Assembly (NCBI GenBank): GCA_020061995.1
Contig: JAGUXE010000166.1
Coordinates: forward strand, 82,424-146,423
Direction: 5' to 3'
DNA: 64,000 nucleotides
DNA from: Ignavibacteriales bacterium
Lineage (GTDB): Bacteria > Bacteroidota > Ignavibacteria > Ignavibacteriales > Ignavibacteriaceae
Each line of letters begins with the position of its first letter. Position 1 is the first letter of the stretch. This document shows positions 41,897-64,000 of this stretch, piece after piece. The notes under the pieces were generated by a model. That model ran no database searches. It was not told the DNA's origin and saw nothing but the letters and a program-made list of their open reading frames with translations. The position numbers and the translations under genes were made by a program.

Positions 41897-41899
41897 TGA

Positions 41900-43635: not shown

Positions 43636-43658
43636 TGAATTTATTCCTTATAAAAAAA

Positions 43659-44234: not shown

Positions 44235-44235
44235 T

Positions 44236-44913: not shown

Positions 44914-45479
44914 AAACTACTCCCTTCCTTTGCTTCTGCTTTTCTGAGCGCTTCAATTCCATTATTGATAATAACAACAACGGCTTTTGAAGAGATTGTC
45001 GCCCCGGTTATTGCTTGAATCTCATTGTCTTTTGTCGGAGGTGACCCTTTAACCCATTCAATAGGTGAGGATGTATTTAGCTTATTGAACTGACCTTTAA
45101 ATGGCTCTTCTAAAATTTTGGTGCCGAGTCCGGGTGTTTCAATTTGGTCAAGCACTTCCATCGCAAGAATAGAGTTTAGATCAGGCTTCAGTCCAACCAT
45201 TAATCTAATTTTTCCTTGAAAACCGTTCCCTTCATAAGGGAGTGAATAACCGATGAAATTTTTCTCTTTATCGAAAACTTTATATGCTTCAAAATTTACC
45301 GAAGTCATTTTTTCATAAGAAGAAGCATCCGGTTGAACAAGAAAAATTGCACGTTCAGTTTCGGCTTTTTGATTTGCTGCAATAAGAGGTGTCGCCCAAC
45401 TATTAACAAACGATAATGCTCCCCCTGCAATTATTCCGATAAAGCCCAAAGTTATAATCATTTTTGCTGTATTATTCAT
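44910..45479 (-). CDS. rnfG: Rnf complex subunit G (covalent flavoprotein)
   Basis: 189 residues: one N-terminal span (MIITLGFIGIIAGGALSFV) and an FMN-binding domain with GNGFQGKIRLMVGL, DQIETPGLGTKI and the flavinylation motif ITGATISSKAV, whose Thr is the expected FMN attachment site for ApbE. It overlaps rnfD by 4 bases and rnfE by 4 bases. Confidence 0.96.
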   Translation of the reverse strand: MNNTAKMIITLGFIGIIAGGALSFVNSWATPLIAANQKAETERAIFLVQPDASSYEKMTSVNFEAYKVFDKEKNFIGYSLPYEGNGFQGKIRLMVGLKPDLNSILAMEVLDQIETPGLGTKILEEPFKGQFNKLNTSSPIEWVKGSPPTKDNEIQAITGATISSKAVVVIINNGIEALRKAEAKEGSSL

Positions 45480-46441: not shown

Positions 46442-46496
46442 TTATTACTTTGTTGATTCAATAAATTCTGAATTTATATTTCTTTCACTTTAAAAA

Positions 46497-47822
46497 TTAT
46501 TTTGCTTTTTCCATTACTTTCTTTTTACCAAGTCTTATCCACTGAACAAGCGGAATATTAGCGGGACAAGTATATGCACATGTACCGCATTCCATACAAA
46601 CACGAATATCGAGAGCCTCAGCCTCTTCAATTTTACCGAGCTGGCTGTAACGCGCTAATTTTGTTGGAATAAGATTAACTGGACAAGCTTCAACACATTT
46701 ACCGCATCTTAAACAGGGTGTTTCCGGTTTTTCGGCAACTTCTTGCTTTGTTAGAACAAGTATTCCTGATGTAGCCTTCATAACCGGCGCAGAAAAATCG
46801 TATTGAGAAACTCCCATCATCGGACCGCCAACTACTACTTTTATAGCGTCATCTGTAACTCCGCCGCAATAGTTTAGAACTTCATCAATCGGGGTACCGA
46901 CACGGACAATCAAATTTTTACTCTCTTTAATTCCATTTCCCGTTATTGTAAGAGCGGCAGTAATAGAAGGCTCACCTTTAACCACAGCTAAATAAATTGA
47001 AACGGCTGTTCCGATATTTTGAACAATTATTCCGGAATCTAACGGCAATTTACCTGGAGGAACTTCTCTGTTTGTTAATGCTTTTATAAGCATCTTTTCG
47101 GCACCTTGCGGATATTTAGTTTCAACTGCTTCAACTGAAATATTGTTAAAAGTTTTAGCCGCTTTTTTCATTGATTCAATAGCAAGCGGTTTGTTGTCTT
47201 CAATTCCGACAATTCCTTTTTCAACTCCGGTTGCTTTCATGATAAGTTGAAGTCCTGCCAAAACCGCTTCGGGCTGTTCGAGCATGTAGCGGTAATCTCT
47301 TGTAAGATAAGGCTCACATTCGCAGCCGTTTAGAATTATGTAGTCAATCTTTTTATCTTTTGGAGGAGAGAGTTTAACTGATGCGGGGAATGCAGCCCCT
47401 CCTTGCCCAACAATTCCGACAAGCCGAACACGTTCAATTATTTCTTCAGCAGAAATAGTTTCACCGTTTAACGTAGGAAGAAAATCAAATTCTTCAATCT
47501 CAGTAGGTTCAATAATTATAGATTCTTTTGGAAATCCGGATGTATTAACAGTCGTTGTTACTGCAGTTACTTTTCCGGTTACGGGACTGTGAATTGGTGA
47601 TGAAACTACACCCTGAGCCTCTGCGATTACCGATCCTGTTTTAACCTCACTCCCTTTTTTTACTAAAGATAAAGCAGGTTTACCAAGATGCTGTGATAAT
47701 GGAACAATAATCCTCTTCGGAAGGGGCATTATTTCAAAAGGTTTATCTTTTGATGGTTGTTTATATTCCGGCGGATGTACACCGCCTTTAAATGTTTTAT
47801 GTTTTGAAAAAGAAAACATCAT
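46497..47822 (-). CDS. rnfC: Rnf complex subunit C (NAD(H)/FMN and Fe-S subunit)
   Basis: 441 residues: an N-terminal barrel-sandwich region (GVHPPEYK, HSPVTGKVTAV), the nucleotide/FMN-binding core (GIVGQGGAAFPASVKL, NGCECEPYLTRDYRYM, EAVETKYPQGAEKMLI), and two [4Fe-4S] motifs (CLRCGKCVEACP; CMECGTCAYTCP). RnfC exchanges electrons with NAD(H). It is the first gene of the Rnf operon. The length is close to that of short bacterial RnfC, without the long Ala/Lys-rich tail of the enterobacterial protein. Confidence 0.96.
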   Translation of the reverse strand: MMFSFSKHKTFKGGVHPPEYKQPSKDKPFEIMPLPKRIIVPLSQHLGKPALSLVKKGSEVKTGSVIAEAQGVVSSPIHSPVTGKVTAVTTTVNTSGFPKESIIIEPTEIEEFDFLPTLNGETISAEEIIERVRLVGIVGQGGAAFPASVKLSPPKDKKIDYIILNGCECEPYLTRDYRYMLEQPEAVLAGLQLIMKATGVEKGIVGIEDNKPLAIESMKKAAKTFNNISVEAVETKYPQGAEKMLIKALTNREVPPGKLPLDSGIIVQNIGTAVSIYLAVVKGEPSITAALTITGNGIKESKNLIVRVGTPIDEVLNYCGGVTDDAIKVVVGGPMMGVSQYDFSAPVMKATSGILVLTKQEVAEKPETPCLRCGKCVEACPVNLIPTKLARYSQLGKIEEAEALDIRVCMECGTCAYTCPANIPLVQWIRLGKKKVMEKAK

Positions 47823-48174
47823 TTTATCCGATATTCATTAATAGCTCCCCATGTAGCCATAAACTATGCCAATTTACAAGAGTAAAAAGTTTTGTTTTTA
47901 GTGAAATTTCAAAGAAAAGTTAGAAGACTTTTCAAATATGAAAAATCTTTTTTCCATAGAATGGAAAGGAAAAGATTGCTTTTTATCAATGATAACTAAT
48001 AGACAAATAACTAAATTCAATTTGCTTTTGCAGAAAATGTTAATGTTGAAACGATGTCAGAAAAACATCCGCAAAGTTTTAAAGACTACTTGTCTTTTTC
48101 GTTTTTTTGATTTTGTATATTTGGAGTGTGCACATAATAATCTTTGCATTTTTATATTAACTCAATAGGGGATT
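47823..48174. other. Divergent intergenic region upstream of the Rnf operon
   Basis: The operon promoter should lie here on the minus strand, but no convincing -35/-10 pair was found. A 76-codon plus-strand frame (47938-48168) has no ribosome binding site and reads as low-complexity K/L/F-rich sequence; I do not regard it as a gene. AGGGG at 48168-48172 is the likely ribosome binding site for the small lipoprotein frame that follows. Confidence 0.45.
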
Positions 48175-48321
48175 ATGTCCTTAAACTTGATAACTAAACT
48201 GTTAGTTTTATTATTACTCCCATTACTGTTTACTGCTGTTAGTTGTAATAAACCAACTGAGCCGCCGCCACCCGAGAAGTATTTTTTAGAAATTAATGGA
48301 GCAGATGCTAATATAAAATGA
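48175..48321 (+). CDS. Very short lipoprotein frame
   Basis: 48 codons: a lipoprotein signal (LLLLLPLLFTAVSCNKP), a proline-rich stretch (TEPPPPEKYFLEINGADANIK) and a stop that overlaps the ATG of the next lipoprotein frame (ATGA). AGGGG lies four nt before the start. It is either a genuine tiny lipoprotein or the 5' remnant of a longer lipoprotein gene now cut short; the abrupt end after the linker favours the remnant. Confidence 0.5.
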   Translation: MSLNLITKLLVLLLLPLLFTAVSCNKPTEPPPPEKYFLEINGADANIK

Positions 48322-49490
48322 AAGAATTTAGGATGAATAGAAGAATAAGTCTATTGCTGATATTAGTCACTATTTTATTAATTGCATCGTTTAGTTGTAA
48401 AAATAATCCTTCCCAACCTCCGGAAAAGGAAACGGATTGCTCCTTCCCGCCCGGAAACAGAAATTTTTCCTGGCATGCCGATACTGTTGCCATCTTCCCT
48501 TCATTTATGGGTGGTGTTTGGGCTTTTTCAGACTCAGATGCTTATGTTATGGGTTCTATTTTTTTAAGAGATGATGATGGTAATTTGCAAGGATATTTTG
48601 GACTACATTGGAATGGAACTAATTGGGATAAAAATATTAATGGTACTGTTTTCGAAATTAACCATGACAGTAGAGATGTTACCGGAGATGATTTTTACAT
48701 GGTATCAGCAGGAATGTAAGGTTATAATAATCCCAGAGCAGCTATAGGTGAGTTTGACAACAAAACTAAAAAATGGAAAAGTTTTTTGTTTGAAACTGCC
48801 GGGGAATTATACTCAGTATGGACAGACAAAAATGGCTATTTTATTGCCGGCGGAAGTAACGGAATGGTTTACATTAAGGATGGTTACTCATCATCATGGA
48901 ATTATATTAAAGCTCCAACCGATTTCAGTTTTTTCGACATTGATGGAATAAACAAAAATGAAATTTATTTATTGGGTTATAAAAACTATGTCACAGGTGA
49001 AGGTCATCGCCAATTATGGAAATATTATAACGAAAATTGGATCAAACTCATCGATACCGAGGATACCCTTAGTTCATTCATTAATTTTCAAGGTGTTTCA
49101 TATGATATAAATGATATTGCTGCTTTAAGATGTGAAATTACTGATTCATTATATTTATTCCTGATTGGGAATGAATCCTTTCGATTAAATTCTTACAAAC
49201 ACACTACGAATTATTTTACTGAAAATCTTAAAGAATTTGGTTTGCCAAATTTTTCTTCGGCTGTAGATATACGACTCTTTTCATTGAATGATTTTTTTGT
49301 CGGAGGTTATTATTTCACTTTATATCATTGGAATGGTTTTGATTTTAAAAAAATTGAGCCATTTCCATACTTTTCAAATAGTAACCCAAAAGGTAGGATT
49401 GTAAAAATAACCAAAAGCAGTTCCGGTAAAATCTGGATACTAATTGAAACAACTTCACAAACTTTTCAAATATTGCAAGGAGAAATATGA
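48318..49490 (+). pseudogene. Lipoprotein gene interrupted by one in-frame stop
   Basis: A single frame runs from the ATG at 48318 to the stop at 49488-49490 except for TAA at 48717-48719. The first part (133 codons) has a lipoprotein signal (IASFSCKNNP) and a propeller-like start (PSFMGGVWAFSDSDAYVMG; DFYMVSAGM). Directly after the stop, without frame change, come GYNNPRAAIGEFDNKTKKW and further similar units (LYSVWTDKNGYFIAGGSNG; GKIWILIETTSQTF). Total length without the stop would be 390 residues. The sequence seems intact otherwise, so the stop is a recent mutation, a sequencing error, or is read through. The function is unknown. Confidence 0.8.
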
Positions 49491-49521
49491 TATGAAATGG
49501 AAAAAAAACTTGCCCCCACGG

Positions 49522-49543
49522 CTGTCGAGAACCACTTCTCGAC
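49522..49543. repeat. Perfect 9-bp hairpin between convergent genes
   Basis: TGTCGAGAA, CCAC loop, TTCTCGACA; outer CCCA and TGGG extend the pairing loosely. A second inverted pair TCTCAC … GTGAGA with a run of T in the loop follows at about 49554-49581. They lie between the interrupted lipoprotein gene and the convergent ligase stop and may act as terminators. Confidence 0.55.
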
Positions 49544-49590
49544 ATGGGATAACAATCTCACAGACTTTTTTTAGCGGTGAGACGAGCTAA

Positions 49591-50580
49591 TTAGTAAAGT
49601 ACATCCATTAAATCATTTAACTCGATATTTCCGAAATATTCTTTTACCTCTACTTTTTGTAATGTGTTAAATAATTCATCTCTATCATACTTAAGTCCTG
49701 TAAGCAAATCTTCAATTTCAGCAACATCATTTTGACCAAAGAAATCGCCATAAATTTTTACGCTTTCGATTAGTCCGTTTTCTACTTGCAAACGAATATC
49801 GATTTCACCGATTGGAAATCTTTTTGTTTTCTGAAGATTAAACTTTGGAGAAAGACCATAATTCCATTCCCATGTTCTATATTTTTTATCGGCGAGTTCG
49901 GTTACCTTCTGCCAATCTTCATCAGACAAAATTAATTTTGGAATTTCGCTAAATCCTTCAAAAATATTATCAAGCAGCGTTTGGCGGAATTCTTCAGTTG
50001 TTAACTTTTGTTCCATATATTCGCTGATATTTGCAACACGACTTCGTACCGATTTAATCCCCTTCGATTCAATCTTTCCGATTTTAACATTAAGCGCAGA
50101 GACAACATTATCAATAGCGGAATCAAAAAGGAGCGTTCCATGACTAAACATTCTGTCTTTATTTGTGAACTGAGCATTTCCCGAAATCTTTTTTCCATCA
50201 ACAAGAATATCATTACGCCCGCTTAATTCAGCATTAACACCAAGTTTATGAAGCACATTGATTACAGGTCCGGTAAACTCTTTGTAATTGTTAAAATGTT
50301 TCGGGTCATATTTTGTGATAAAGCTGAAGTTTAAGTTTCCGTGATCGTGATAAACCGTTCCACCACCGGAAATTCTTCTTACAACATGAATATTATTTTC
50401 ACGAACATATTCATGGTTAATCTCTTCAAGCGTATTCTGGTTTTTCCCGATTATAATTGACGGTTCATTAATATAGAATAGTAAATATGTTTCACTTATA
50501 TCGACATTGCGAAGACAATATTCTTCAAGAGCTAAGTTTAAATATGGATCGTGGTTATTTTTATTATCGATAAAAAGCAT
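49591..50580 (-). CDS. lplA: Lipoate-protein ligase A
   Basis: 329 residues with the ligase signature RRISGGGTVYHDHGNLNFSF, SIIIGKNQNTLEEIN, and the catalytic-Lys region DGKKISGNAQF followed by HGTLLFDSA. The C-terminal third is the accessory domain of bacterial long-form LplA. It attaches lipoate, through lipoyl-AMP, to E2 subunits and to GcvH. No lipoate-dependent complex genes lie nearby. Confidence 0.93.
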   Translation of the reverse strand: MLFIDNKNNHDPYLNLALEEYCLRNVDISETYLLFYINEPSIIIGKNQNTLEEINHEYVRENNIHVVRRISGGGTVYHDHGNLNFSFITKYDPKHFNNYKEFTGPVINVLHKLGVNAELSGRNDILVDGKKISGNAQFTNKDRMFSHGTLLFDSAIDNVVSALNVKIGKIESKGIKSVRSRVANISEYMEQKLTTEEFRQTLLDNIFEGFSEIPKLILSDEDWQKVTELADKKYRTWEWNYGLSPKFNLQKTKRFPIGEIDIRLQVENGLIESVKIYGDFFGQNDVAEIEDLLTGLKYDRDELFNTLQKVEVKEYFGNIELNDLMDVLY

Positions 50581-50606
50581 AAGACTCCGTTAGTTTTATT
50601 TAAGTC

Positions 50607-50745
50607 ACCTTACGCAGATGTCATGCTGTACGCCGTGGCGAATCATTTCAGCATCTAAATATTATTGGAAAACAGATTCTGAAACAATTCGCCCTGGCGA
50701 ACAGAATGACAAGTAGTCTTTTTTTTCATATCTTCTGCGTAAGGT
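50607..50745. repeat. Nested palindromic element
   Basis: Two inverted pairs lie one inside the other. The outer arms ACCTTACGCAGA (50607-50618) and TCTGCGTAAGGT (50734-50745) match perfectly over 12 bp. The inner arms at 50619-50656 and 50674-50711 (38 nt each) match with about six differences, around a 17-nt loop. The whole 139-bp unit fits exactly between the ligase start and the peptidase stop. It has no coding capacity and could be a miniature mobile element or a folded RNA. Confidence 0.8.
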
Positions 50746-50748
50746 CAG

Positions 50749-51939
50749 TTATTTGATTAAAATTAATTCAATTTGCGGATTTGTTAAATATTCGCATCCA
50801 TCTTTTGTAACAACAATTTCTTCTTCCATTGTTACAACACCATGTCCTTCAACAAAAAGTCGAGGTTCAATCGTATAGATTTGATTCTCCTCAATAGGAA
50901 GAAAAGGAAGATTTCCGTATCGCTCCCAACGAGGGAAAAATCCGCCACCGCCATCGTGCGCTGTTCTACCAAGCTGATGTCCGAGTCCGTGCTGATATTC
51001 GGCATATCCGTTTTCAACAATAAAATTTCTTGCAGCATCATCAACTTCACAACCTTTTAATCCGGGACGAACCACAGCTTTTGCTTTTTTAATTGCCGTT
51101 TTTAAAACATCAAATCCGCGCTGAACCTCAGTCGGAGCCGTATCCTCACCATCGCGAAGTATGTACCATGTTCTTTGCATATCGGAACAATAGCCTTTAT
51201 ACTTTACTCCGAAATCCATATTTATGATATGTCCCTTTTCGACTTTTCTATTGGTGGGACCTGCGTGAGCGCCTGCTGTATCGGGTCCTGTGAATACCGA
51301 AGGACAATGATCTTCTGCCCAGGCGAGACCGAGACCTCGAGCAAAAATTCTTTCTTTAACAAATTGCGCTATTTCGATTTCAGTTTTTCCGGGTTTTATA
51401 AATTCAGTAGCTTCAACAAAAATTTCTTCAGTATGATTAACTGCAATTTTCATTAATTCAATTTCAGAAGACGATTTTCTTCCCCTCAAAGAGGCAATTA
51501 TTTCTTCAGAAGAAACAAATCTATCTACGAAAGAAGTTCCCTCTAAATGCTTTTTCAGAATAACATAAAGCCCATGTGTAAGTCCATCGGCAAGGTTTGA
51601 ATTTAATGAATAATTAAGAGCAATCTTTTGCGGATTCTCTTTTGATAAGTATTCATGTAGAGGTTCTTTTACTGATTGCAAATATCCTATAACATTTTTG
51701 TAAGTACCGACCATCTTCATATTTGGGACTTCAAGTGAGCCTACAATAGCGGTTGTATCTCCGTTTCTATTTATAAGAAAAGCAGATTGCCACGTTGCAT
51801 TTGTCCCGACTACCATTTCCATGGCGGGGTCGCGCATAGTTCCGCTTTCACGGACGAAAGTCATCCATAAATCAATATCTTTTTCATTAAGTATTGATAT
51901 AGCCTGCTGAATTTTTTCGGTTACTAAATTTGTACTCAC
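50749..51939 (-). CDS. M24-family aminopeptidase (Xaa-Pro peptidase-like)
   Basis: 396 residues: an N-terminal creatinase-like domain and the C-terminal pita-bread domain with the five metal ligands in INMDFGVKYKGYCSDMQRTW (two Asp), HGLGHQLG (His), YTIEPRLFVEG and TMEEEIV (two Glu). It would remove residues N-terminal to proline or act on a related peptide. The start is GTG with AGAGG seven nt upstream. The substrate cannot be fixed from the sequence. Confidence 0.88.
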   Translation of the reverse strand: MSTNLVTEKIQQAISILNEKDIDLWMTFVRESGTMRDPAMEMVVGTNATWQSAFLINRNGDTTAIVGSLEVPNMKMVGTYKNVIGYLQSVKEPLHEYLSKENPQKIALNYSLNSNLADGLTHGLYVILKKHLEGTSFVDRFVSSEEIIASLRGRKSSSEIELMKIAVNHTEEIFVEATEFIKPGKTEIEIAQFVKERIFARGLGLAWAEDHCPSVFTGPDTAGAHAGPTNRKVEKGHIINMDFGVKYKGYCSDMQRTWYILRDGEDTAPTEVQRGFDVLKTAIKKAKAVVRPGLKGCEVDDAARNFIVENGYAEYQHGLGHQLGRTAHDGGGGFFPRWERYGNLPFLPIEENQIYTIEPRLFVEGHGVVTMEEEIVVTKDGCEYLTNPQIELILIK

Positions 51940-52305
51940 ATCAAACCTCTAATTTTCTTTTATGTAAATCTAAGTTATTTTGAGGAAAAATATTATTTAT
52001 TTACCGCACTCAGTAATTTTATAATTGAATAACTCCGATATTTATAGCAGAGTACGGGGCATTATCAAACTTACAGATTTTAGTCCAAAAACGACTTGCT
52101 TCTGTGGCTAAAGCCAAAGTGTATCCGACATATTTAACTTCGTCATAAATGACGGACTTAATTCATAATCGATGTTGTACAATTTATACTATGAGACCTG
52201 TTAATCGAAATTAAATACTTTTAAGCTTAATCACTTAAAGACATTGAAAATATTTTTTATTAAATTAGCTGAAAGAAAAACTTATCCACATTATTTTAAT
52301 ATCAG
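51940..52305. other. Divergent intergenic region with small palindromes
   Basis: No gene seen between the M24 peptidase and the antiporter. Two perfect short hairpins stand out: TGGCTAAAGCCA near 52107 and CGTCATAAATGACG near 52142. They lie about 35 nt apart in a less AT-rich block (about 52045-52185), which looks like a degraded repeat unit rather than a promoter. Confidence 0.45.
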
Positions 52306-54291
52306 ATGCATGACTACGGTATAATCAGAGAAATAGTTATTATCCTTGCGGTTTCACTCCCCATACTTTTTTTATTTAAGAAAGTAAACATACCAAGCAT
52401 TATAGGCTTTCTAATTGCCGGTGTAATTATCGGTCCATTTGGTTTTAAGCTGATTGACGATACTTCAAAAATTGAAGTGATGGCGGAAATCGGTGTTATT
52501 TTATTAATGTTCACTATCGGACTTGAATTTTCAATTGAGAAGTTAATCAAGATGAAAGACCTTCTTTTCTATACAGGAGGATTTCAAGTATTGGGAACAA
52601 TTGCAGTTGCCGGAATTTTGTTTTATAGTTTTGGTGTAAGCATTAATCAAGCTATCTTTTTAGGAATGCTGATTTCACTATCAAGCACTGCCATAGTCTT
52701 GAAAATTCTTGTCGATAAAAATGATTTGAGTGCCCCTTACGGAAAAATATCATTGAGCATATTGATTTTCCAAGATTTAGCTATCGTGCCGATGCTTATA
52801 TTACTGCCTGTTCTAAGTGCAACAGGGAATGTAAGTTTTTTAGCTGTTTCAATTCAGATGCTGATTTCGTTTGGGTTAGTTGCGGTTATTATTCTTCTCG
52901 CTAAGTTTTTAATTCCCAAATTACTTTTTCATATCGCGAACTTAAGAATACGTGAAGTATTTACGATTGGTATTTTATTGTTTGTTCTCGGTATTTCATA
53001 CATGACAGAGATGGTGGGATTATCATTCAGTATAGGTGCTTTTATAGCGGGAATAATAATATCCGAATCAGAATTCAGTTATGAAATAGTAGCCGAAATT
53101 CTTCCATTTAAAGATGCTTTTAATAGTCTCTTTTTCGTCTCGGTTGGATTGTTATTAAATGTTCAATTTATTCTTGAAAATCCGGTTATAGTTTTTCCAA
53201 TTATTTTAGGCATAATAATAGTCAAAAGCGGTATTATTCTTTTAATTGTAAAAGCTATGAAGTATCCTGCAAGGGTAGGTATTATGGCGGGATTCAGTTT
53301 AGCACAAATCGGTGAATTCTCTTTTATCTTAGCTCAAGCCGGAATGGGTTATGAATTAATCAGTAAAGAATTTTTTAACGCTTTCCTCGCAGCATCAATC
53401 TTTACAATGATATTAACACCATTTATGATTCAGATTGCTCCATTTTTTGCATCAAAAGTTTCTTTCCTTGACGGGAAAAATATCGTCTTAAACGAAGATG
53501 AAAATGATGTTGAAGAATCAACATTAAAAAATCATGTTGTGATTGTAGGCTTTGGGTTAAACGGGAAAAATCTTGCAACTGTTTTGAAGGAGACCGGAAT
53601 TCAATATATAGTTATTGAACTAAATCCCGAAACAGTACTTCGACAAAAATCGCTTGGCGAAAATATTCTTTATGGAGACAGCACTAAAAAAGAAATTCTT
53701 CATAAGACACACATCCACGAGGCCAAAGTAATAGTTTTTGCAATATCAGATCCAAGTTCAACGCGAGCATCTCTTAAAGTGGTTAAGCAGATGAATCCAC
53801 ATGTTTATGCGATTGTAAGAACCCGTTACATTAGTGAAATAGAGGATTTAATGAAACTTGGGGCCGATGAAGTTATACCTGAAGAATTTGAAACATCACT
53901 CCAGATATTCGGAAAAGTATTAACACAATATCATATTCCGCTAAACGTCATAGCAAAACAAACCGCATTGTTGAGAGGTCAATCTTATAAAATGATGCGC
54001 CACTCAGGAAATGAGGCACCACAATATTATCACCTTGATGAAATCCTCGCACAAGGTTTAACCGACACATTTTTTGTCTCTGAAAATAATAAGTTTATCG
54101 GTAAAACATTAAAAGAAATTAATCTTCGGGCAGTTACCGATGCTACAATAATAGCCATTGTACGCGGAAGTAAGACAATCTCCAATCCATCAGGAAAAGA
54201 AAAAATTTTTTATAATGATACAATCGTAATAACCGGTACCCACATGGCGGTTGATAAGGCGTTCGATTATTTGGAAGATGAAAAGAGTTGA
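52306..54291 (+). CDS. CPA2-family cation:proton antiporter with RCK domains (Kef-type)
   Basis: 661 residues: a Na+/H+ exchanger domain with 12 or so spans (IPSIIGFLIAGVIIGPFG; GVILLMFTIGLEFS; LSSTAIVLKIL; FQDLAIVPMLIL; LAQIGEFSFILAQAGMG), an RCK/TrkA-N domain (HVVIVGFGLNGKNLATVL … YGDSTKKEIL, about 408-525) and a TrkA-C domain (about 570-655; SENNKFIGKTLKEINLR). Potassium or sodium efflux gated by nucleotide binding is the family role. The paired genes here converge with an AEC carrier 8 nt downstream. Confidence 0.93.
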   Translation: MHDYGIIREIVIILAVSLPILFLFKKVNIPSIIGFLIAGVIIGPFGFKLIDDTSKIEVMAEIGVILLMFTIGLEFSIEKLIKMKDLLFYTGGFQVLGTIAVAGILFYSFGVSINQAIFLGMLISLSSTAIVLKILVDKNDLSAPYGKISLSILIFQDLAIVPMLILLPVLSATGNVSFLAVSIQMLISFGLVAVIILLAKFLIPKLLFHIANLRIREVFTIGILLFVLGISYMTEMVGLSFSIGAFIAGIIISESEFSYEIVAEILPFKDAFNSLFFVSVGLLLNVQFILENPVIVFPIILGIIIVKSGIILLIVKAMKYPARVGIMAGFSLAQIGEFSFILAQAGMGYELISKEFFNAFLAASIFTMILTPFMIQIAPFFASKVSFLDGKNIVLNEDENDVEESTLKNHVVIVGFGLNGKNLATVLKETGIQYIVIELNPETVLRQKSLGENILYGDSTKKEILHKTHIHEAKVIVFAISDPSSTRASLKVVKQMNPHVYAIVRTRYISEIEDLMKLGADEVIPEEFETSLQIFGKVLTQYHIPLNVIAKQTALLRGQSYKMMRHSGNEAPQYYHLDEILAQGLTDTFFVSENNKFIGKTLKEINLRAVTDATIIAIVRGSKTISNPSGKEKIFYNDTIVITGTHMAVDKAFDYLEDEKS

Positions 54292-54299
54292 ATTAAAAA

Positions 54300-55244
54300 T
54301 CACAAACCAAACTCCTTAATCACAAATATTCCTAAACTCATTGTGAAGATAAATCCGATTGTTGTAATCACAATGATATTTCCCGCAAGTTTTTCGTTTG
54401 AACCCATCGCTCCGGCCATGATAAAACTGACTACTGCAGTCGGGCAGGCAAAAAGTACAAATAAAATCATTAAATCATTTCCTTTATAACCGAAATAGAA
54501 AGCCGCCAACGTAAATATTACCGGATAAAAAACTATTTTTAATACCGATGATAAAACAGCCGGAAGAGTTGAAGTTTTTACTGAATTCCAATTTAGCGAT
54601 CCTCCAATTCCAATTAATGCTAGCGGCAACGAGATTGAAGCTATATAAGAGATCGTTTTATTAACAAATTCATAAGGTCTAATTTCGAAATAAGAAACGG
54701 GAATCGAAAAAATAACGGCAAGGATTAACGGGTTTGTAATTATATCTTTTATACTCTTTGTAACAGAAATACTCCCTTCCTTTCTGAAAGGAAGATATAA
54801 TGCAATGATTGCAAGAATATTATATAACGGAAGTAAAAACCCAAGTATTAACGCTGCTTTTGCTGCTCCTGCCGAACCGGAGACGTTTAATATTACCGCA
54901 AGTCCTACGATTGCAAAATTCCCCCTAAAACTCCCTTGAACAAAAGCTCCTTTATTCTTTAAATCATGAATATAGAATTTTGAAATAAAAAGACTAATCA
55001 AAAAGGAGGCAAATGTGGCAACGTAAATAAATGTAATCATTCCGAAATCAATTGCTTCACTAATGCGTAATACCGACAACTTTGAAAAGATAAAAACCGG
55101 AAGTGCAATGTTATAGACTAATTTTGACGAAACTTTAATAAAGCTGTCATCAATAAAATTTTTTGTTCGGAGGAAAAGTCCGATTACAACTAATATAAAT
55201 ACCGGCGCAATTGTGTTTGCTGAAAAGAGTAGATTGTCCAACAA
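54300..55244 (-). CDS. AEC-family transporter
   Basis: 314 residues with about ten membrane spans in two five-span halves, the pattern of the auxin efflux carrier (AEC) family: VFILVVIGLFLRTKNFID, NIALPVFIFSKLS, FVQGSFRGNFAIVGLAVIL, PLALIGIGGSLNW and FACPTAVVSFIMAGAMGSN. Bacterial members export or import malate, malonate or other small organic acids; the substrate is not evident. It converges on the antiporter gene with only 8 nt between stops. Confidence 0.88.
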   Translation of the reverse strand: MLDNLLFSANTIAPVFILVVIGLFLRTKNFIDDSFIKVSSKLVYNIALPVFIFSKLSVLRISEAIDFGMITFIYVATFASFLISLFISKFYIHDLKNKGAFVQGSFRGNFAIVGLAVILNVSGSAGAAKAALILGFLLPLYNILAIIALYLPFRKEGSISVTKSIKDIITNPLILAVIFSIPVSYFEIRPYEFVNKTISYIASISLPLALIGIGGSLNWNSVKTSTLPAVLSSVLKIVFYPVIFTLAAFYFGYKGNDLMILFVLFACPTAVVSFIMAGAMGSNEKLAGNIIVITTIGFIFTMSLGIFVIKEFGL

Positions 55245-55430
55245 ATTATTAAGACCTAAAAAAAAATTATTTTATGCACAAAGTTACAAAATATGAGTAG
55301 AACAGCTATTATTTGAGGTGATATTTTAGTTTTATCGAGCACCAAAATAATGATTTCAAAAAAGACTAAACTTCTCAATGTTTTTTTCGATAATAGCCTC
55401 GTATAACTATCTTTAAATAAGAAAGATGAG

Positions 55431-57311
55431 ATGTTCGAAGATCAGCAAATAAATAATATTGCATTTAGTGGCGATGAGGTTATAAGTAATCCCGTTTCAG
55501 AAGAAGTGATGCTTGAAAGGGATTTGGGAAAATTTAATAAAGTTGGCAGAGATTATTTTCATGTTGAATTAAGACGCGAAGTAGATCTGCTGGCTAGTAT
55601 TAAAAACAGTTCCAGGTTTTATAATCTTCAACTACCTGCTAACTTAAATGAATTCTTCATTAGACATGAGGAATCGGCATTATTTTGGATTTTCGAAATT
55701 CCACTTCTGAGCTATCTAGAAGAGCATACTAAAAATCAACTTGGAACAAAGAGCGCAATTTATGATTATAAATTAATCAAAGATTATTTTTCAAAATGGG
55801 CAATTGCGAAAAATGAGGGGCAGAAGAAGATGCTGGCAAACTCCACGATGAGTCTTTTACGTAAAGAAGGGAACTCGGGAGTTATTTTAAATTCGATTTT
55901 TATGGCAGTCTTGTATTCATTCGAACCAACATTACAAAACCCGATTAAAGCAGTTGATGAATTTAAGAAAGTAATAATGTCGCCGGCGGTCTCAAAAATG
56001 GCTGACAAATTTAAGATTGAGCTATACTATTTGATGGAAGTTTATTCCGGTTTTGCTTATCTGTCTGTCTTCAATTATTACGATTCATCAATCCATTTTA
56101 CGGAAGCACTGAAACATAATCCTTATGGAATGACTGCAAAGCTGTATTTATCATACACCTCAATAAAAATGCAGCAAAACGAAATAGCAGGCTATCTGTT
56201 AAAAGAAATTTACAGTTACGATTTATATAGACTTATGTATGCCGTAGAAAACAGTAGCACGGCGATGTTTATATACTTTTTGAGAAATCCGATTATTAAA
56301 AACATTTTCTATTATCCTCCATTTGCTATACATATAGATACCATAACTGACAAGTTGAATGAATCTCCGGTATCAGATTATTCAAAATTTGTAAAACTTA
56401 GAGATAAAATTAATCTATTGGAAAAACTTCAACTCGAAGGTTACTATTCTGATGATATTAAAAAGAACATTACATTTTTAACAAAAATGATTGGAAATTC
56501 AGAGGAGACGAAGCATGTTTTCTTTATAGCCTCATTGGATCATTTTAAAGAAAAATATAATAAGACCATTGAATTAATTGAAGCAGCCGTAAACGAAAAA
56601 TTCCACACTGAATATAGACCGCAATTAGAACTTTTTGATGCTAAAATTAAAGATAACGGTATGGTTATCGAACAATTCATGAAGGAGCTTCAAGACGCCA
56701 AAAATGATCTAAAGACAAAGTTAAAAGAGGTTATATCTAAGCTCGAAAAAATCACATACGAAAATATTAGTGTAGTTGAGAACAGATTAAATAATCTTCA
56801 TTTGGAAAAAGAATATGACCCGAATGTATCATTCCAAAATTCGATGACATATAATTTTATTATTGCATTAACCGTCTTTCTTATTGGCGGTTTTGCGGGG
56901 TATTCAAACAACCTTAATAATAGTTCCGGTACTTTTGATGGTACAATGGGGACGATATTATTTACCGGAATTAAATGGTCGATGCTGACTTTTGGAATTG
57001 GGTTTTTAATTTCATTGGTATTCTCAGGTTTTGTTCTTTTAGAACGCTCTAACCAGAAGCAGAGATTGCTTCAGAAAATCAGTGCTTATAAAAATGAAAA
57101 AGACAGAAAAATTGAATACGTTAAGAAAGAAGCCGAGATGAAAGAAAAATCAATCACGGAAAACTTCAATGACAGAATTGAACTTCATAAAGCATCAATA
57201 GAAGACCTCAAACGTCGTAGAGCAGCTGATGAAATAGCATTTAGAGAAGAAGCAGAATCCAAAATAGAACCGATAAGAGCAAGTCTAAGAAAAATTTTAG
57301 AAGAAACATGA
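55431..57311 (+). CDS. Uncharacterised membrane protein with helical repeats and coiled coils
   Basis: 626 residues, not recognised. The N-terminal 300 residues are helical with TPR-like pairs (YSGFAYLSVFNYYDSSIHFTEALKHNPYGMTAKLYLSY). Next come a long coiled coil (about 390-465), two membrane spans near 480-500 and 520-545 (FIIALTVFLIGGFAGYS; MLTFGIGFLISLVFSGFVLL) and a second charged coiled coil to the end. No signal peptide, so both ends probably face the cytoplasm. The layout suggests a scaffold or a mechanically coupled membrane protein. The neighbouring genes give no hint. No strong ribosome binding site is seen. Confidence 0.8.
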   Translation: MFEDQQINNIAFSGDEVISNPVSEEVMLERDLGKFNKVGRDYFHVELRREVDLLASIKNSSRFYNLQLPANLNEFFIRHEESALFWIFEIPLLSYLEEHTKNQLGTKSAIYDYKLIKDYFSKWAIAKNEGQKKMLANSTMSLLRKEGNSGVILNSIFMAVLYSFEPTLQNPIKAVDEFKKVIMSPAVSKMADKFKIELYYLMEVYSGFAYLSVFNYYDSSIHFTEALKHNPYGMTAKLYLSYTSIKMQQNEIAGYLLKEIYSYDLYRLMYAVENSSTAMFIYFLRNPIIKNIFYYPPFAIHIDTITDKLNESPVSDYSKFVKLRDKINLLEKLQLEGYYSDDIKKNITFLTKMIGNSEETKHVFFIASLDHFKEKYNKTIELIEAAVNEKFHTEYRPQLELFDAKIKDNGMVIEQFMKELQDAKNDLKTKLKEVISKLEKITYENISVVENRLNNLHLEKEYDPNVSFQNSMTYNFIIALTVFLIGGFAGYSNNLNNSSGTFDGTMGTILFTGIKWSMLTFGIGFLISLVFSGFVLLERSNQKQRLLQKISAYKNEKDRKIEYVKKEAEMKEKSITENFNDRIELHKASIEDLKRRRAADEIAFREEAESKIEPIRASLRKILEET

Positions 57312-57779
57312 TCGCATAAAAATAAAGAAAACACTTCGTTTTAAGTCACCGACTCAGCGTTTCAACACAATTTACCTCCAAGCCAGAAATAAAGTCTCAC
57401 AAAATTAATCCAATCTAAAACCCCAATAATAGCATGTTGGCTAATATTGGACAGCCATTCACTAAAAAGAGAGAAATATTGAGACAAAATGGAGAATAAT
57501 GAGAGAATTGCATTTCGGCATGGAAATGGGAAATAGAGTTGATATTTATAGGATTTTTTTTGCAAGATAGAATAAAAGCTAAGCAATCTTCTCTGATTAA
57601 GTTGTGTAATGATCATAAATAATTGAATAACAATTTTTTGAATAAAGGAGTAATTAGAGATTAGATGATGATCACTCAGAAGATATTTTCCAGACTAAAC
57701 TCTGCCAGAAAAAACAATGAAGATATTAGCGTTTTATTTGATATGAAAGACACTTGCCGAATTCAGAACAATAAATGTT
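57312..57779. other. Region upstream of the giant glycosyltransferase gene
   Basis: This 468-bp stretch lacks a convincing gene. A 44-codon plus-strand frame (57665-57799) has AAGGAG 14 nt before its ATG, which is too far, and no recognisable protein signature. An 84-codon minus-strand frame (57362-57616) is hydrophobic and lacks a ribosome binding site. Promoters for the giant gene are not obvious. Confidence 0.4.
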
Positions 57780-60700
57780 ATGGTAAATATGAAAAATAAC
57801 AAACATCCAGAAGCAATTTTTATTCAACTAAATACATACTGTAATGCAACATGCATAAATTGCCCACATGTATTTACTTATAAAACAGTGCATCCAAAAG
57901 GAAGCATGAATGAAAAAACTTGGAAAAAAATTCTTAATGATCTGATTGAAATGAATTATGGTGGTCAGGTTGGTTTTTATCTTCACCATGAACCACTGAT
58001 TGATGTTACTTTATATGATAAAATTAAAGATATTAATTTAAGAACAAATGCTCATGTAGTAATCTCGACAAATGGGGCTCTATTAAATAAGGAACACAGA
58101 AAAAAACTTATTGAAGCTGGGCCTAGAAAAGTTCATATAAATATCAATTCGGGCATTGAAGAAGAATATGAAAGGTCAATGGGCCTAAATTTTAAAAGTA
58201 CAATTGAAAATGCTCAAAATTTTATTAAAGAGGCGGAAGGGGCAATTAGTGTTGAGATTAATTGTCCGGTTATGGAGGGTTATGATGTTAAATCGCTAGA
58301 ACAACTTTTCCCTTCTACGAAAGTAAATCTGGATTATTATGCAAATTCTAGAGGTGGTTTGATTCCTGATCTTTATGGAAAAGTTAAGGGGAGTCGTTTT
58401 AAGATCGAAGAATATTGCGTACAACCCTCACAAAATTTCAATATTCTTTTTGATGGCACTGTTATTTTGTGCTGTATCGATTGGATGCATGAATCCAAGG
58501 AGGATTATGGGAATATAAATGATTCTTCGATTGCCGAACTATATTCAAAAGTATGTGAAGAGGAAGAAGGTTTTAAAAAGGGAGATTATTCAAAGTATAA
58601 CATGTGTGATATTTGTTCAGAAGAGATGGGGTTTAATAAAAAATCTAGCAAAATAACTAAACTAAAAATACTCATTACAAACCATCATTTATTAGATTAT
58701 ACCGGGTCAGAAGTGTACACGCTAACTTTAACAGAGCAACTATTAAAGTATGGTCATGAAGTTGTTATTTACTCGAAATATGTTGATAAGATAGAGGGAG
58801 AGTTTCTAAATCTAAATGTCCCAGTTGTCAATCATTTAGAAGAAATTAAAGAATTACACTTTGATATAGCACATGTTCACCATAACATTAATGCGGCTGA
58901 GGTAAGATATTTTTTCCAAAATCTTCCCATTGTCTATTTATCTCATGGGGTTCTTCCATTTTTGGAACAACCATCAATATTTAATTTAGGAATTACACAT
59001 TATGTAGCTGTTAGCGAAGAAGTGAAAAACAACTTAGTTTCAAATGGAATTCAGGAAAATGATATTAGCATGGTTGGAAATATCATAGACACTCATAAGT
59101 TTAGTTCATTTAAAACGGTAAATAGTTTTCCCCAAAAAGCACTAGTTGTAAGTGCAAAAATTGGTGATGAAAAAAAGAAACGAATTGAGCAAGCGTGCAG
59201 CTATTTAGGAATTGAATGTAAATTTGTTGGTGGGAGAAATGGAGAAGTCAAGCGTGAACACATTGCTGATTTGATAGTTGAAGCGGATGTTGTCTTTTCT
59301 TTAGGTCGTGGGGCAATAGAGGCTATGTTATGTGAAAGAAATGTAATTGTCTATGATGAAAACGGAGGTGATGGATTAATCACTAAAGATAATTTTGATG
59401 AAATACGAAAACATAATTTTTCCGGGAGAAGATTTCACAGAGATTTTTCTATAGAAGAATTAATTTCGCTACTAAAAGATTGTCCGCAAAACGATGTTAG
59501 ATATGTAAAAGATAAAGCATACGAATTATTTGCCGCAGAAAAGGTAATTCATAAACTCACAGCTATTTATATAAAAACTATACAAGAATTTATTAAAGAT
59601 GACTCTGTTGACTTTAAAATGTTAGAAAGCTTTTATAAATCACTGCAAGATACCAGAGACTACACGAAAATTGTATCCCAAAGAAAATTATCACTAAATA
59701 ATGTTAGCAGTGAAAAACAAATATCGACAAAAGAAATCTTATTTAAGTACAATTCAAAAGTAGATAAGCTGTTGCGTAGATCTGCCAGGGCAAACAATGT
59801 TAAAAGTCAAATGCAGTTGGTTGACAAACAGTATGACGTATTAATACCAATTTACAATGCATATGAGCAAGTAAAAGTATGTGTCGAAAGTGTTTTGAGA
59901 AATACAAAATCTATTCATAAAATATATTTGCTTGATGATGCAAGTCCGGATAAAAATATTCTACCAATGCTGAATGCATTTGCCGAAAATGACAATCGTG
60001 TTATAGTTGTTTCGGCAAAAAAAAACCTTGGTTTTGTTGGCAATATGAATGTTGGTTTTAAGCTTTCTAATAATGATGTAATAATCTTGAACTCAGATAC
60101 CGAAGTAACACCCAATTGGATAGAAAAATTAAATCTATGTGCTCAATCAGATTTTCAAATAGGGATTGTTTCACCATTATCTAATAACGCAACAATACTC
60201 TCCGTCCCCGAGTTTAACGCAAATAATAAACTTCCAAAGGATATATCGGTTGATCAATTTGCAAAAATTGTAGAAGAATGTTCAAATAAAGATTATCCCG
60301 AATTACCTACCGCAGTAGGTTTTTGCATGCTTATTAAAAGGGAAGTCCTAAATAAAATAGGTTACTTCGATGAAATATTTGGGTTAGGGTACGGAGAAGA
60401 AAATGATTTTTGCGAACGGGCTAAAGAAAATGGATACAAAATAGTTTGTTGCGATAATCTTTATGTCCATCATTATGGCGAAGCCTCTTTTTCATCTGTG
60501 GAGCAAATTAGTGAGAGGAGAAAAACCAATCAATTAAAACTTGAAAGTAGATGGCCAAACTATGCGAAAGAAATATTTGGATTTTGTAGAACAAATCCAT
60601 TAAGACGAATACAAGAGAAGATATATTTCGACATAAATAAGCATAATTCATCTCCGCATGTATTGAATGTGATTCATAGTTATAATGCGCCCGGTGGTAC

Positions 60701-63700
60701 GGAGTTGCATACTTCTGATGTAATGGAAAGAATAAAGGATTCATTTAGGTTTAGCATAATGTATCCGGCTTCTCTAGGCCTTGATTACACAGACGCAAAA
60801 ACAAGCATCAATAAGCAAGGTATTCGAGAAATAAAAATCGCCAAAGAGAATAATCTCGCTGTGGAATATTTTAATGGTATGCCTGGAGATTTAACAAGTG
60901 AATTGATAGAGCAAAATTTTGTTAATTTCCTTCAAGGTGGTGATTATAACATTGTCCATTTTCAACATCTTCTAAATTGGTCATCGCTTTTGCTTCCGCT
61001 GATAGTAAAAAAGTTAAATAAGAAAGTGATAATTACTCTTCATGATTATTATTTAATGTGTCCCGAGTTCAATATGATATTCCCGGAAACTCTCTCCAGA
61101 TGTAATAAACCATTCGCGAGTTCAACCGATGAAGAGTGTCTATATTGTTTAGGAAGTAAGCGAAGAAGAAGAATTCCTAAGAATGCACAATCGCTTTCTA
61201 ATTATTTATTTGAAAGACATGAAATTATCAAGAACATTTTCAAGAATTCTGATTTGCTAATTTCTCCTTCTGAATTTGTAAAGCAAAAATTTATTTCAGC
61301 TTATGGGGATGATGTTGCTCACAAAATAAAAGTTCTTTCGCACGGAATACACCCACTAAAAAAAGTAAACCGCCCGAAATTTGAAAAATATTTATATGTC
61401 GGTTTTCTAGGAAACGTTACGACGATCAAAGGCGCAAATATATTGCTTGCGCTAGGTAAAAGACTCGTTGGAAAAGATATAAGACTGGAAGTTTTCGGAA
61501 ATGTTGCAGTAGAATTCAGTGCTTTACTCCAAGAGGTAGGAATCAAGATTCACGGTGGTTACGAACGTGAAAAACTATACAAATTAGTAAAACATATTCA
61601 ATTAATTATTATTCCTTCAATTTGGGATGAAACATTTTGTCTTACTCTTTCTGAAGCCATGGAGCTGGGAATTCCAGTCATCGCTTCTGATTCTGGAGCT
61701 ATGAGTGAAAGAATAATCGAGGGTGAAACGGGGTTCTTGTTCAAAACAGGCAGCGCTTACGATTTAGAGAACAAACTTTTCAAGCTTTTGGCCAATCCCT
61801 TTCTGCTAGAAAAGGTTCAGAAAAACCTTGCCCAACTTAAAATTAAAACCATTGATGAAAACGCAGAAAATTATAGATCAATTTACAATGATGTTTTAAA
61901 CTCAATCAACAAGACTGTTATTAATTCCTCAAAAAAATTAGACTTATACGACCACAGGGTAATCACAACATCAATTGTGGTCTTAACATACAATGCGCTA
62001 GAGTACACTAAAAAGTTTTACCAATCTTTGGTCGATTCAAAGGTCAAAGATTATGAGCTAATTATAATTGATAATGCGAGTACTGATGGAACAATAGAAT
62101 ATTTAAAGAGGAGTTTTGTTGGAATCACAAATGCTGTGGTTCTCTTCAATGAAAATAACTTAGGCTTTCCAGCCGCAGTTAACCAAGGAATTAATGAAGC
62201 GAAGGGAAAATACATTGTTATAGTAAATAACGATATTGTTCTGACAAAAGGTTGGATTGAGCGCATGATAGAAATTGTTGAATCTAATTCAAGAATTGGC
62301 CTTGTTGGTCCAATCAGCAACGATGTTAGCGGTTTGCAAAAAGATAAAAAAGCAAACTACAAATCAATTGATAATATGCATAAATATGCAGCAAAAGTTG
62401 CAGAGGAAAACAAAGGGGAAATCCTACAGTTCCCACGAGTTGCGTTTTTATGTACATTAATTAAAAAGGAAGTTATCGACAAAATCGGTGGACTTGATGA
62501 ACGTTTTTCTCCTGGTAATTATGAGGATGATGACTTCTGTTTGCGCGCACAACTTGCCGGTTATAAAACAGTAATTGCAAAAGATGTATTCATTCATCAT
62601 TACGGTTCGAAAAGTTTTAAGGCAAATGGTAATGCAGCTTATCAAGAACGACTTGATATTAACCGTGCCAAATTTGTTGATAAATGGGGAGTAACCCCTG
62701 AAGAAATTTGGCTTGAAAACAAACAAGTAAAACCCCGTCAAATTTTTTATCCGATAAAGAAAGATTTGTTCGCTCAATTGTTTGAACGTACCAATGTTCA
62801 TATTGCCGATAATGAACTCGTTCTTGCTGAAGAAGCAATATCAAAAGCTATTGATAACTTTATTTCGGGAAATGGAAAAATTGAGAGATCTGAATTACTT
62901 GACCTAGCCGGAAATATCTGTCTTGCAAACGGTAATCCGGAAAAAGCTCAAGAATATTTTTCGTTAGAGTTAGATTTAATTCCTTCATCTTCTTCCGCGT
63001 GTCTTGGTTTAGGAAATGTGTTTATCGGCTCTGAACAATTCGTTAACGCAAAAACAATGATCGAGTGGGCTGTTAAAAATGATCAAACAAACAAGGTTGC
63101 AAAAAATAGATTAAGTGAAATTAATCAACTTCTTGGTTATGCACCAAACCACAATTCTTTGTTTGAAAACAGTGTTGATGAAGATCGAACAGAGTCTATT
63201 CTACAAAATATTGTTGATCTATTTGTTGCAGATAAATATGATGAAGCAAGAATGATGGTAGAAGAAAATAATGAACAGCTTACCCAATACGTTGATAGCT
63301 TTGACAACGATGGAGACAAAGCTGAATATTACAATATGAAAGGTTTTATCTACTTATCGGTGGATAATAATTTGGCTCGTGAATGCTTTGAAAAAGCCCT
63401 CGGTTTTAATCAAACTTCATCACAAGCATGTGTCGGTTTAGGCGAATTATTCTTTCTTGATAATATGCTCAACGAAGCGAAAACTATGTATGAGTGGGGA
63501 GTATTCAATGACCCGACAAATCAACTTGCAGTAAACGGACTTGCAAAATTAAATGAACTACTCGGCTTCGAATTAGCCCATAATACTTTAGTAAAAGAAA
63601 TTGTTTTTGAAGATGTTTTTATGGAAGCGGCGGAGCTGTACAAAAAATCACAATTTCATGAGGCAATAGAATTTATTGAACAACATGTAAATAGTTTATC

Positions 63701-64000
63701 AGTTTTACTTGATAATGGAGTTACAAATGTTGAACTCTCAACCCTTTTTAATCTAAAGGGATTTTGCTATCTCGGCTTAAGTGATGAAGAAAACGCAGAA
63801 GCTGCTTTTGGAAAATCTATAAATATTAATCCGGAATCATCACAAGCCTGTGCAGGTATAGGAGTCGTTTTTCTTTCACAAGGAAGAACTAATGATGCAA
63901 AAACAATGCTTGAATGGGCTTTAAAAAATGATAACACCAATGCCATTGCAAAACCAACACTTGCTAAAGTGAATGAAATGTTGGGTTTCACTTTGCATCA
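57780..64000 (+). CDS. Giant radical SAM / four-glycosyltransferase / TPR fusion protein, partial (3' end outside window)
   Basis: One uninterrupted frame of 2,073 codons that leaves the window still open. ATG at 57780 or 57789 may be the start; neither has a good ribosome binding site. Domains in order: radical SAM with CNATCINC at about 21-28 and a SPASM-like tail (CVQPSQNFNILFDG … CCIDW … CDIC, about 213-280); a GT4-like domain (about 296-601, TGSEVYTLTLTEQL, degenerate E-loop); a GT2 domain (about 686-904: LLDDASPD, NSDTEVTPNW, GEENDFCERA); a GT4 domain (about 960-1381: APGGTELHTSDV, ETFCLTLSEAMELGIPVIAS); a second GT2 domain (about 1397-1614: DNASTDG, NNDIVLTKGW, EDDDFCLRA); then TPR helices with a repeat of about 141 residues. 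It probably builds a surface or protein-linked glycan. Confidence 0.88.
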   Translation, partial: MVNMKNNKHPEAIFIQLNTYCNATCINCPHVFTYKTVHPKGSMNEKTWKKILNDLIEMNYGGQVGFYLHHEPLIDVTLYDKIKDINLRTNAHVVISTNGALLNKEHRKKLIEAGPRKVHININSGIEEEYERSMGLNFKSTIENAQNFIKEAEGAISVEINCPVMEGYDVKSLEQLFPSTKVNLDYYANSRGGLIPDLYGKVKGSRFKIEEYCVQPSQNFNILFDGTVILCCIDWMHESKEDYGNINDSSIAELYSKVCEEEEGFKKGDYSKYNMCDICSEEMGFNKKSSKITKLKILITNHHLLDYTGSEVYTLTLTEQLLKYGHEVVIYSKYVDKIEGEFLNLNVPVVNHLEEIKELHFDIAHVHHNINAAEVRYFFQNLPIVYLSHGVLPFLEQPSIFNLGITHYVAVSEEVKNNLVSNGIQENDISMVGNIIDTHKFSSFKTVNSFPQKALVVSAKIGDEKKKRIEQACSYLGIECKFVGGRNGEVKREHIADLIVEADVVFSLGRGAIEAMLCERNVIVYDENGGDGLITKDNFDEIRKHNFSGRRFHRDFSIEELISLLKDCPQNDVRYVKDKAYELFAAEKVIHKLTAIYIKTIQEFIKDDSVDFKMLESFYKSLQDTRDYTKIVSQRKLSLNNVSSEKQISTKEILFKYNSKVDKLLRRSARANNVKSQMQLVDKQYDVLIPIYNAYEQVKVCVESVLRNTKSIHKIYLLDDASPDKNILPMLNAFAENDNRVIVVSAKKNLGFVGNMNVGFKLSNNDVIILNSDTEVTPNWIEKLNLCAQSDFQIGIVSPLSNNATILSVPEFNANNKLPKDISVDQFAKIVEECSNKDYPELPTAVGFCMLIKREVLNKIGYFDEIFGLGYGEENDFCERAKENGYKIVCCDNLYVHHYGEASFSSVEQISERRKTNQLKLESRWPNYAKEIFGFCRTNPLRRIQEKIYFDINKHNSSPHVLNVIHSYNAPGGTELHTSDVMERIKDSFRFSIMYPASLGLDYTDAKTSINKQGIREIKIAKENNLAVEYFNGMPGDLTSELIEQNFVNFLQGGDYNIVHFQHLLNWSSLLLPLIVKKLNKKVIITLHDYYLMCPEFNMIFPETLSRCNKPFASSTDEECLYCLGSKRRRRIPKNAQSLSNYLFERHEIIKNIFKNSDLLISPSEFVKQKFISAYGDDVAHKIKVLSHGIHPLKKVNRPKFEKYLYVGFLGNVTTIKGANILLALGKRLVGKDIRLEVFGNVAVEFSALLQEVGIKIHGGYEREKLYKLVKHIQLIIIPSIWDETFCLTLSEAMELGIPVIASDSGAMSERIIEGETGFLFKTGSAYDLENKLFKLLANPFLLEKVQKNLAQLKIKTIDENAENYRSIYNDVLNSINKTVINSSKKLDLYDHRVITTSIVVLTYNALEYTKKFYQSLVDSKVKDYELIIIDNASTDGTIEYLKRSFVGITNAVVLFNENNLGFPAAVNQGINEAKGKYIVIVNNDIVLTKGWIERMIEIVESNSRIGLVGPISNDVSGLQKDKKANYKSIDNMHKYAAKVAEENKGEILQFPRVAFLCTLIKKEVIDKIGGLDERFSPGNYEDDDFCLRAQLAGYKTVIAKDVFIHHYGSKSFKANGNAAYQERLDINRAKFVDKWGVTPEEIWLENKQVKPRQIFYPIKKDLFAQLFERTNVHIADNELVLAEEAISKAIDNFISGNGKIERSELLDLAGNICLANGNPEKAQEYFSLELDLIPSSSSACLGLGNVFIGSEQFVNAKTMIEWAVKNDQTNKVAKNRLSEINQLLGYAPNHNSLFENSVDEDRTESILQNIVDLFVADKYDEARMMVEENNEQLTQYVDSFDNDGDKAEYYNMKGFIYLSVDNNLARECFEKALGFNQTSSQACVGLGELFFLDNMLNEAKTMYEWGVFNDPTNQLAVNGLAKLNELLGFELAHNTLVKEIVFEDVFMEAAELYKKSQFHEAIEFIEQHVNSLSVLLDNGVTNVELSTLFNLKGFCYLGLSDEENAEAAFGKSININPESSQACAGIGVVFLSQGRTNDAKTMLEWALKNDNTNAIAKPTLAKVNEMLGFTLH

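Follow-up and report, generated by a model that had tools for sequence, protein, structure and literature searches.

In Caulobacter, the tetratricopeptide repeat (TPR) part of FlmG binds flagellins, and its glycosyltransferase (GT) part alone fails to restore modification, according to the accessible text of the report (PMC7591256). Mycobacteriophages carry glycans on the capsid, with one of two papers, as far as their accessible parts go, also reporting the tail tube (PMC11256854, PMC12619734). BtrN, a 2-deoxy-scyllo-inosamine dehydrogenase of known structure (PDB 4m7s, 4m7t), is a radical S-adenosylmethionine (SAM, AdoMet) enzyme of the twitch type. Here we analyse a giant open reading frame (ORF) in which these kinds of activity are combined. 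It lies at the end of a 64,000-nt stretch of DNA (the window) from an Ignavibacteriales bacterium (contig JAGUXE010000166.1), occupies positions 57780..63998 of the + strand and encodes 2073 amino acids (aa) with an open 3' end, joining a radical SAM module, four GT modules and a TPR region in one chain. We propose that the product is a cytoplasmic multi-enzyme glycosylation protein, in which the radical SAM module would be a BtrN-like dehydrogenase acting on the glycan of a surface or filament protein; we put equal weight on this proposal being right and being wrong.

The giant ORF is the last gene of the window and, in agreement with the preliminary description of this DNA, its frame is unbroken from 57780 to the window end, where it is still open. 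A run of 2073 codons free of stops has a probability of ~7e-70 at the base composition of the ORF (33% G+C). The G+C content per codon position stays even throughout, and in each of the other two forward frames every stretch of up to 200 codons has at least 4 stops. Three homologues (P0001, P0002 and P0003), encoded on contigs of 192, 278 and 403 kb, show an identical module order and align over 86% of the query with 56-57% identity. An assembly artefact fusing separate genes, which had been thought unlikely from the start, would find a foothold in the fact that the gene leaves the window inside a TPR repeat region; the three homologues on other contigs and the steady codon pattern led us to reject it, and we give it a negligible probability. 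Translation may in fact begin at the ATG at 57789, since the relatives begin close to the motif HPEAIF. The gene probably extends past the window end, because the TPR region of P0019, 71% identical to that of the window over 430 residues, continues for 150 more residues; the best matches of P0001-P0003 to the TPR part cover about the first 157 of 433 residues.

A Pfam search of the protein, with the family cut-offs, bore out the predicted order of radical SAM, SPASM-like, GT4, GT2, GT4, GT2 and TPR parts (all on the + strand). The N-terminal barrel module (aa 1-200, 57780..58379) is indeed a radical SAM domain, with the CX3CX2C motif at Cys21, Cys25 and Cys28 and a PF04055 match at aa 19-176 (39.4 bits against a cut-off of 29.5). 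It is followed by a twitch/SPASM-like auxiliary cluster region (aa 213-279, 58416..58616; PF13186, 29.0 bits against 21.5). The first transferase, GT4a (aa 295-640, 58662..59699), belongs to a family marked by the motif NFSGR, with kin among phage and Desulfovibrio genes (Pfam, BLAST). PF13439 matches the protein in two stretches, the best (aa 308-439) covering the N-terminal half of GT4a. In the E-x7-E motif, which we take to be usual for GT4 enzymes, GT4a has Phe in place of the first Glu and retains the second, as read by eye. GT2a (aa 684-960, 59829..60659) carries the second PF00535 stretch, a PF13632 match and a match to chondroitin synthase. GT4b (aa 961-1380, 60660..61919) is a GT4 enzyme, with PF00534 and PF13692 matches (91.3 bits against 26.4), a Glycos_transf_1 match at aa 1198-1349 and E-x7-E present as DETFCLTLSE. 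GT2b (aa 1394-1650, 61959..62729) contains the best PF00535 stretch (aa 1398-1525; 161.7 bits for the whole protein against 23.3). The TPR region (aa 1660-2073, 62757..63998) shows three long units by eye, is matched by TPR families inside aa 1705-2062 and by P0019, and leaves the window.

To define the radical SAM module we used an alignment of 74 rows that drew on 73 of the 86 radical SAM homologue proteins, leaving out short or partial ones (P0158, P0162, P0167, P0169-P0171), the GT4-fused P0179 and P0190, and the five weakest (P0202-P0206). These two GT4-fused proteins, of 400 and 506 aa, are distant radical SAM/SPASM relatives (25-26% identity) joined to a Glycos_transf_1 domain. The C-terminal region conserves only Cys213, Cys231, Cys232, Cys276 and Cys279, and Asp234 is likewise invariant. 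Four of these (Cys213, Cys231, Cys276 and Cys279) line up with the auxiliary-cluster cysteines of BtrN. The SPASM-like cysteine tail announced in the preliminary description thus stands in the sense that PF13186 matches, but the cysteines suffice for one auxiliary cluster and not for the two of a full SPASM domain, which, together with the predicted fold, places the module in the twitch, or BtrN-like, class. In the structure predicted from the 74-row alignment, BtrN 4m7t scores 3.9 Z units over SuiB and 4.8 over anSME, although BtrN 4m7s ties with SuiB. An earlier model from 10 sequences was weak (predicted local distance difference test score, pLDDT, 69.3), tied BtrN with many folds and was superseded. 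Arg191, which aligns with BtrN Arg152 (residue number counted from the alignment), is kept in 46/46 close rows and in 2/28 distant ones; a role as a BtrN-like substrate residue is a lead only.

Of the two substrates first suggested for the radical enzyme, peptide or sugar, the sugar (or alcohol) side is favoured. Because the module is nearer to BtrN than to the peptide maturases, oxidation of a sugar or alcohol seems the better guess from the modelled fold. A maturase of ribosomally synthesised and post-translationally modified peptides was ranked lower, given the single auxiliary cluster, the fold and the named NCBIfam radical SAM models, which stayed far below their cut-offs (TIGR04317, 53.4 bits against 380; the spiro-SPASM model TIGR04321, 45.6 against 250).

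The fusion belongs to a family of mosaics. The homologue search found 310 proteins, and the module counts that follow cover the 120 listed. The block GT4a-GT2a-GT4b-GT2b is present in 11, GT2a-GT4b-GT2b in 19, and a close GT2b relative (45% identity or more) in 103. This radical SAM module stands at the extreme N-terminus in 14 (start at residue 1-17), and a fifteenth carrier, P0113, has an internal match of 26%. The mosaics P0013 and P0005 also contain methyltransferase and polysaccharide deacetylase, or WbsX, domains. We considered the rule that GT2b is always the last enzyme, with which 103/103 agree as far as window-like modules go, yet we do not claim it, because Pfam shows a further GT2 after GT2b in P0005. 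Among the listed homologues, 13 of 15 organism names are Ignavibacteria or lower taxa (Melioribacteraceae, Stygiobacter and Rosettibacter being counted there after taxonomic placement), one is a Kapaibacterium and one a Bacteroidota. At E 1e-50 or better, the radical SAM module was found in none of 395 genomes of the phylum of genome G001, beyond G001 itself. Among plasmids, the entire 2073-aa sequence hit 408 records, all of them covering 80% of the query or less, and the radical SAM module alone matched 6, with 22-27% identity. Because its members exchange modules ahead of a GT2b-TPR end, this family is a natural series in which to ask whether multi-enzyme GTs read like assembly lines.

A search of genome contigs gave five loci, and both loci with a fused giant protein lie in flagellar clusters. 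In the first (L001), FliD, FlaG and flagellin are encoded upstream on the opposite strand; in the second (L002), the genes upstream on the same strand encode a flagellin-like protein (FlgL-like by eye), FliW, flagellin, FliD and FliS. Directly upstream of the giant gene of L002 there is also another fusion of radical SAM, GT2-like and TPR parts (L002:7920-9974, 685 aa), which is not a close relative. Nearby flagellin genes are a trait of some FlmG-type systems, and we count them as supporting evidence. In the window itself, no flagellar gene was noticed by eye in the ORF lists, with no family search made for them. The Desulfovibrio locus (L005) has a GT4 gene of the GT4a family (BLAST E 7e-10 to GT4a, 0.34 to GT4b) adjoining the radical SAM gene, in a polysaccharide-like setting with an ABC transporter, RgpF and CTP_transf_like. 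Its radical SAM gene is split across two frames (L005:10001-10934), by sequencing error or as a broken gene. In Croceicoccus (L003), where an integrase is near, and in a sphingomonad (L004), no GT was seen by eye beside the radical SAM gene.

Separate genes of the same kinds are found in tailed phages. Two queries gave no match among annotated phages, and a search of viral contigs gave one locus (L013), in which a GT4, a radical SAM and an unmatched 390-aa ORF sit between the major head and portal genes. This GT4 has no Pfam or PHROGs match, yet reaches E 1e-7 to GT4a. A wider query added L014 and L015, and the radical SAM of L014 as query gave 16 loci; with L013, the set comprises 17 loci, which DNA identity sorts into 10 groups. 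Nine of these groups have a GT4a-family gene or fusion within the radical SAM cassette, and in the tenth (L018) the contig stops ~850 bases past the radical SAM gene. Sequences from L013, L005, L001 and L002 went into the GT4a profile, so their matches to it are built in; independent evidence for L013 and L005 comes from BLAST. Across these contigs (L013-L030), the cassettes, often with a GT2, were seen among head, connector and tail genes. By PHROGs, the neighbours are portal, head protease, major head, head closure, tail terminator and tape measure in L028, head-tail adaptor, neck, major tail and tape measure in L014, and, with one gene tested each, a head-tail adaptor in L015 and a head protease in L029. 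The phage radical SAM proteins have 214-224 aa (often about 219) with a shortened barrel in seven groups, the exceptions being L025 (253 aa), L013 (full length) and L030 (frame broken). CX3CX2C, CCxDW and SRAG are kept in 8/8 aligned, the window having SRGG for SRAG. Four phage GT2 parts matched the window GT2 modules, GT2b better than GT2a in 4/4.

A GT4a-only query (A5), made from four phage cassettes carrying radical SAM, found 24 viral loci, with radical SAM detected in 10 and undetected in 14. By DNA identity these loci form 13 groups, 4 with and 9 without radical SAM. With the pair in only 4/13 groups, GT4a seems to be the core component in phages and radical SAM an accessory. Nine of the 14 loci without radical SAM were read by eye: a GT2-like gene precedes the GT4 in four, methyltransferase-like genes occur in one, and four have no separate partner. 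An ORF of 128-172 aa resembling a tail-tube protein follows in 8 of the 9, again by eye; PHROGs confirmed such an ORF only in L014, and one tested in L028 was unmatched.

In some relatives, then, radical SAM and GT4a keep company with genes for flagellin, capsid or tail proteins. The scheme that follows is our inference as regards acceptor, sugars, sequence of steps and radical chemistry. The C-terminal TPR superhelix would dock the acceptor, most likely a surface filament or layer subunit, and GT2b, adjacent to the TPR, would work with GT4a, GT2a and GT4b to assemble a short glycan on it or to transfer one to it. The twitch radical SAM module would cleave AdoMet and take a hydrogen from a hydroxyl-bearing carbon of a sugar (or of the glycosylated residue), the second electron passing to the four-cysteine auxiliary cluster and a keto group being left, as in a BtrN-like dehydrogenation. 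The fusion would hold the intermediates on a single carrier. A broader idea is that a shared toolkit of BtrN-like radical SAM, GT4a and GT2 puts an oxidised sugar on self-assembling subunits (flagellar filament, phage capsid and tail tube), and that in Ignavibacteria it merged with additional transferases and a docking arm to give a single, recombining assembly-line protein. This we hold tentatively, with the weight of probability against it, and it is weakened because all ten A5 loci with radical SAM lie on contigs already found by the radical SAM query, so that no new pair emerged.

The earlier suggestion of a protein-glycosylating machine is favoured by the flagellin clusters, the phage capsid and tail loci and the FlmG precedent, and several observations pull the other way. 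The Desulfovibrio GT4 and radical SAM genes are clustered with an ABC transporter, RgpF and CTP_transf_like, the GT2 modules resemble chondroitin and heparosan synthases and, under the NCBIfam cut-offs, exopolysaccharide enzymes, and the mosaics P0005 and P0013 carry WbsX and polysaccharide deacetylase domains. These would fit a protein that makes the repeat unit of a lipid-linked surface polysaccharide (lipopolysaccharide, capsule or rhamnan type), with the TPRs organising the complex and the radical SAM module oxidising or epimerising a sugar. Such a role accords poorly with the flagellin clusters of L001 and L002 and with the phage structural loci, and no exporter or polymerase was noticed by eye among the ORFs of window 44000-57780, which covers the upstream side only; we consider it unlikely.

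Two other possibilities concern the radical step. The module might alter an acceptor side chain (for example by oxidising Ser or Thr, compare anSME on Cys or Ser) and so make the site for the fused GTs. The tie between BtrN 4m7s and SuiB leaves some room for this, but 4m7t lies well above both SuiB and anSME, just one auxiliary cluster set is conserved, and the radical SAM need not create the acceptor, because 14/24 phage GT4a loci show none; we regard it as quite improbable. Alternatively, it could epimerise a sugar or catalyse some other redox-neutral reaction, the invariant Cys232 donating hydrogen. The clearly nearer fold of BtrN 4m7t speaks against this, and the CC pair may be simply common in this SPASM-type domain; we think it equally doubtful, if not more so. 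A glycan is favoured over a side chain as the substrate of the proposed dehydrogenase because radical SAM has an accessory character in phages and because L005 lies in a polysaccharide-like cluster. If protein-bound glycans do undergo radical SAM chemistry, this would enlarge the bacterial and phage glycosylation repertoire and explain such enzymes beside flagellin, capsid and tail genes. In the phage cassettes, related enzymes exist as small individual proteins that lend themselves to biochemistry, and in our judgement this branch deserves its own study.

Elsewhere in the window, type IX secretion sorting domains are above cut-off in two proteins, in keeping with an Ignavibacteria origin. By eye, 2971-23582 holds a run of large sensor-like ORFs with SpoIIE/PP2C-like phosphatase ends, which surround a 1696-aa protein that repeats a GAF-like unit many times and finishes in a kinase-like part, and 41087-47822 holds Rnf-like electron transport genes with an ApbE-like gene.

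In the literature on radical SAM with flagellin glycosylation, Ignavibacteria, phage tail proteins and fused GT/TPR proteins, with subscription papers mostly outside the coverage, we found no description of such a protein; the radical SAM enzyme treated in one paper that came up is unrelated. The preliminary description was right in knowing of no described system with this module order, but the order is not unique, as P0001-P0003 share it. Among described systems, chondroitin synthase (2z86, 2z87) and heparosan synthase B, which make polysaccharide, rank first or high among the solved structures matched by GT2a and GT2b; these synthases are not known to carry a radical SAM or GT4 domain or an extended TPR tail. 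BtrN shares with the N-terminal module the predicted fold, CX3CX2C and the four auxiliary-cluster cysteine positions; it differs in sequence (22% identity over 231 residues), in having Phe at the position of Cys232 and in that the window module is fused to GTs. Phage GTs are believed to modify the subunits of capsid and tail tube, and the present cassettes lie near such genes, but radical SAM goes unmentioned in the accessible parts of both papers (PMC11256854, PMC12619734). FlmG likewise joins a TPR region and a GT in one chain, and two relatives of the window protein adjoin flagellin genes; according to the accessible text, however, it has 596 aa, an N-terminal TPR and one GT (PMC7591256), whereas the window protein has a C-terminal TPR, four GTs and a radical SAM module. 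By analogy with FlmG, the TPR region probably docks the acceptor, and we rate the giant protein as a putative new form of TPR-guided protein glycosylation.
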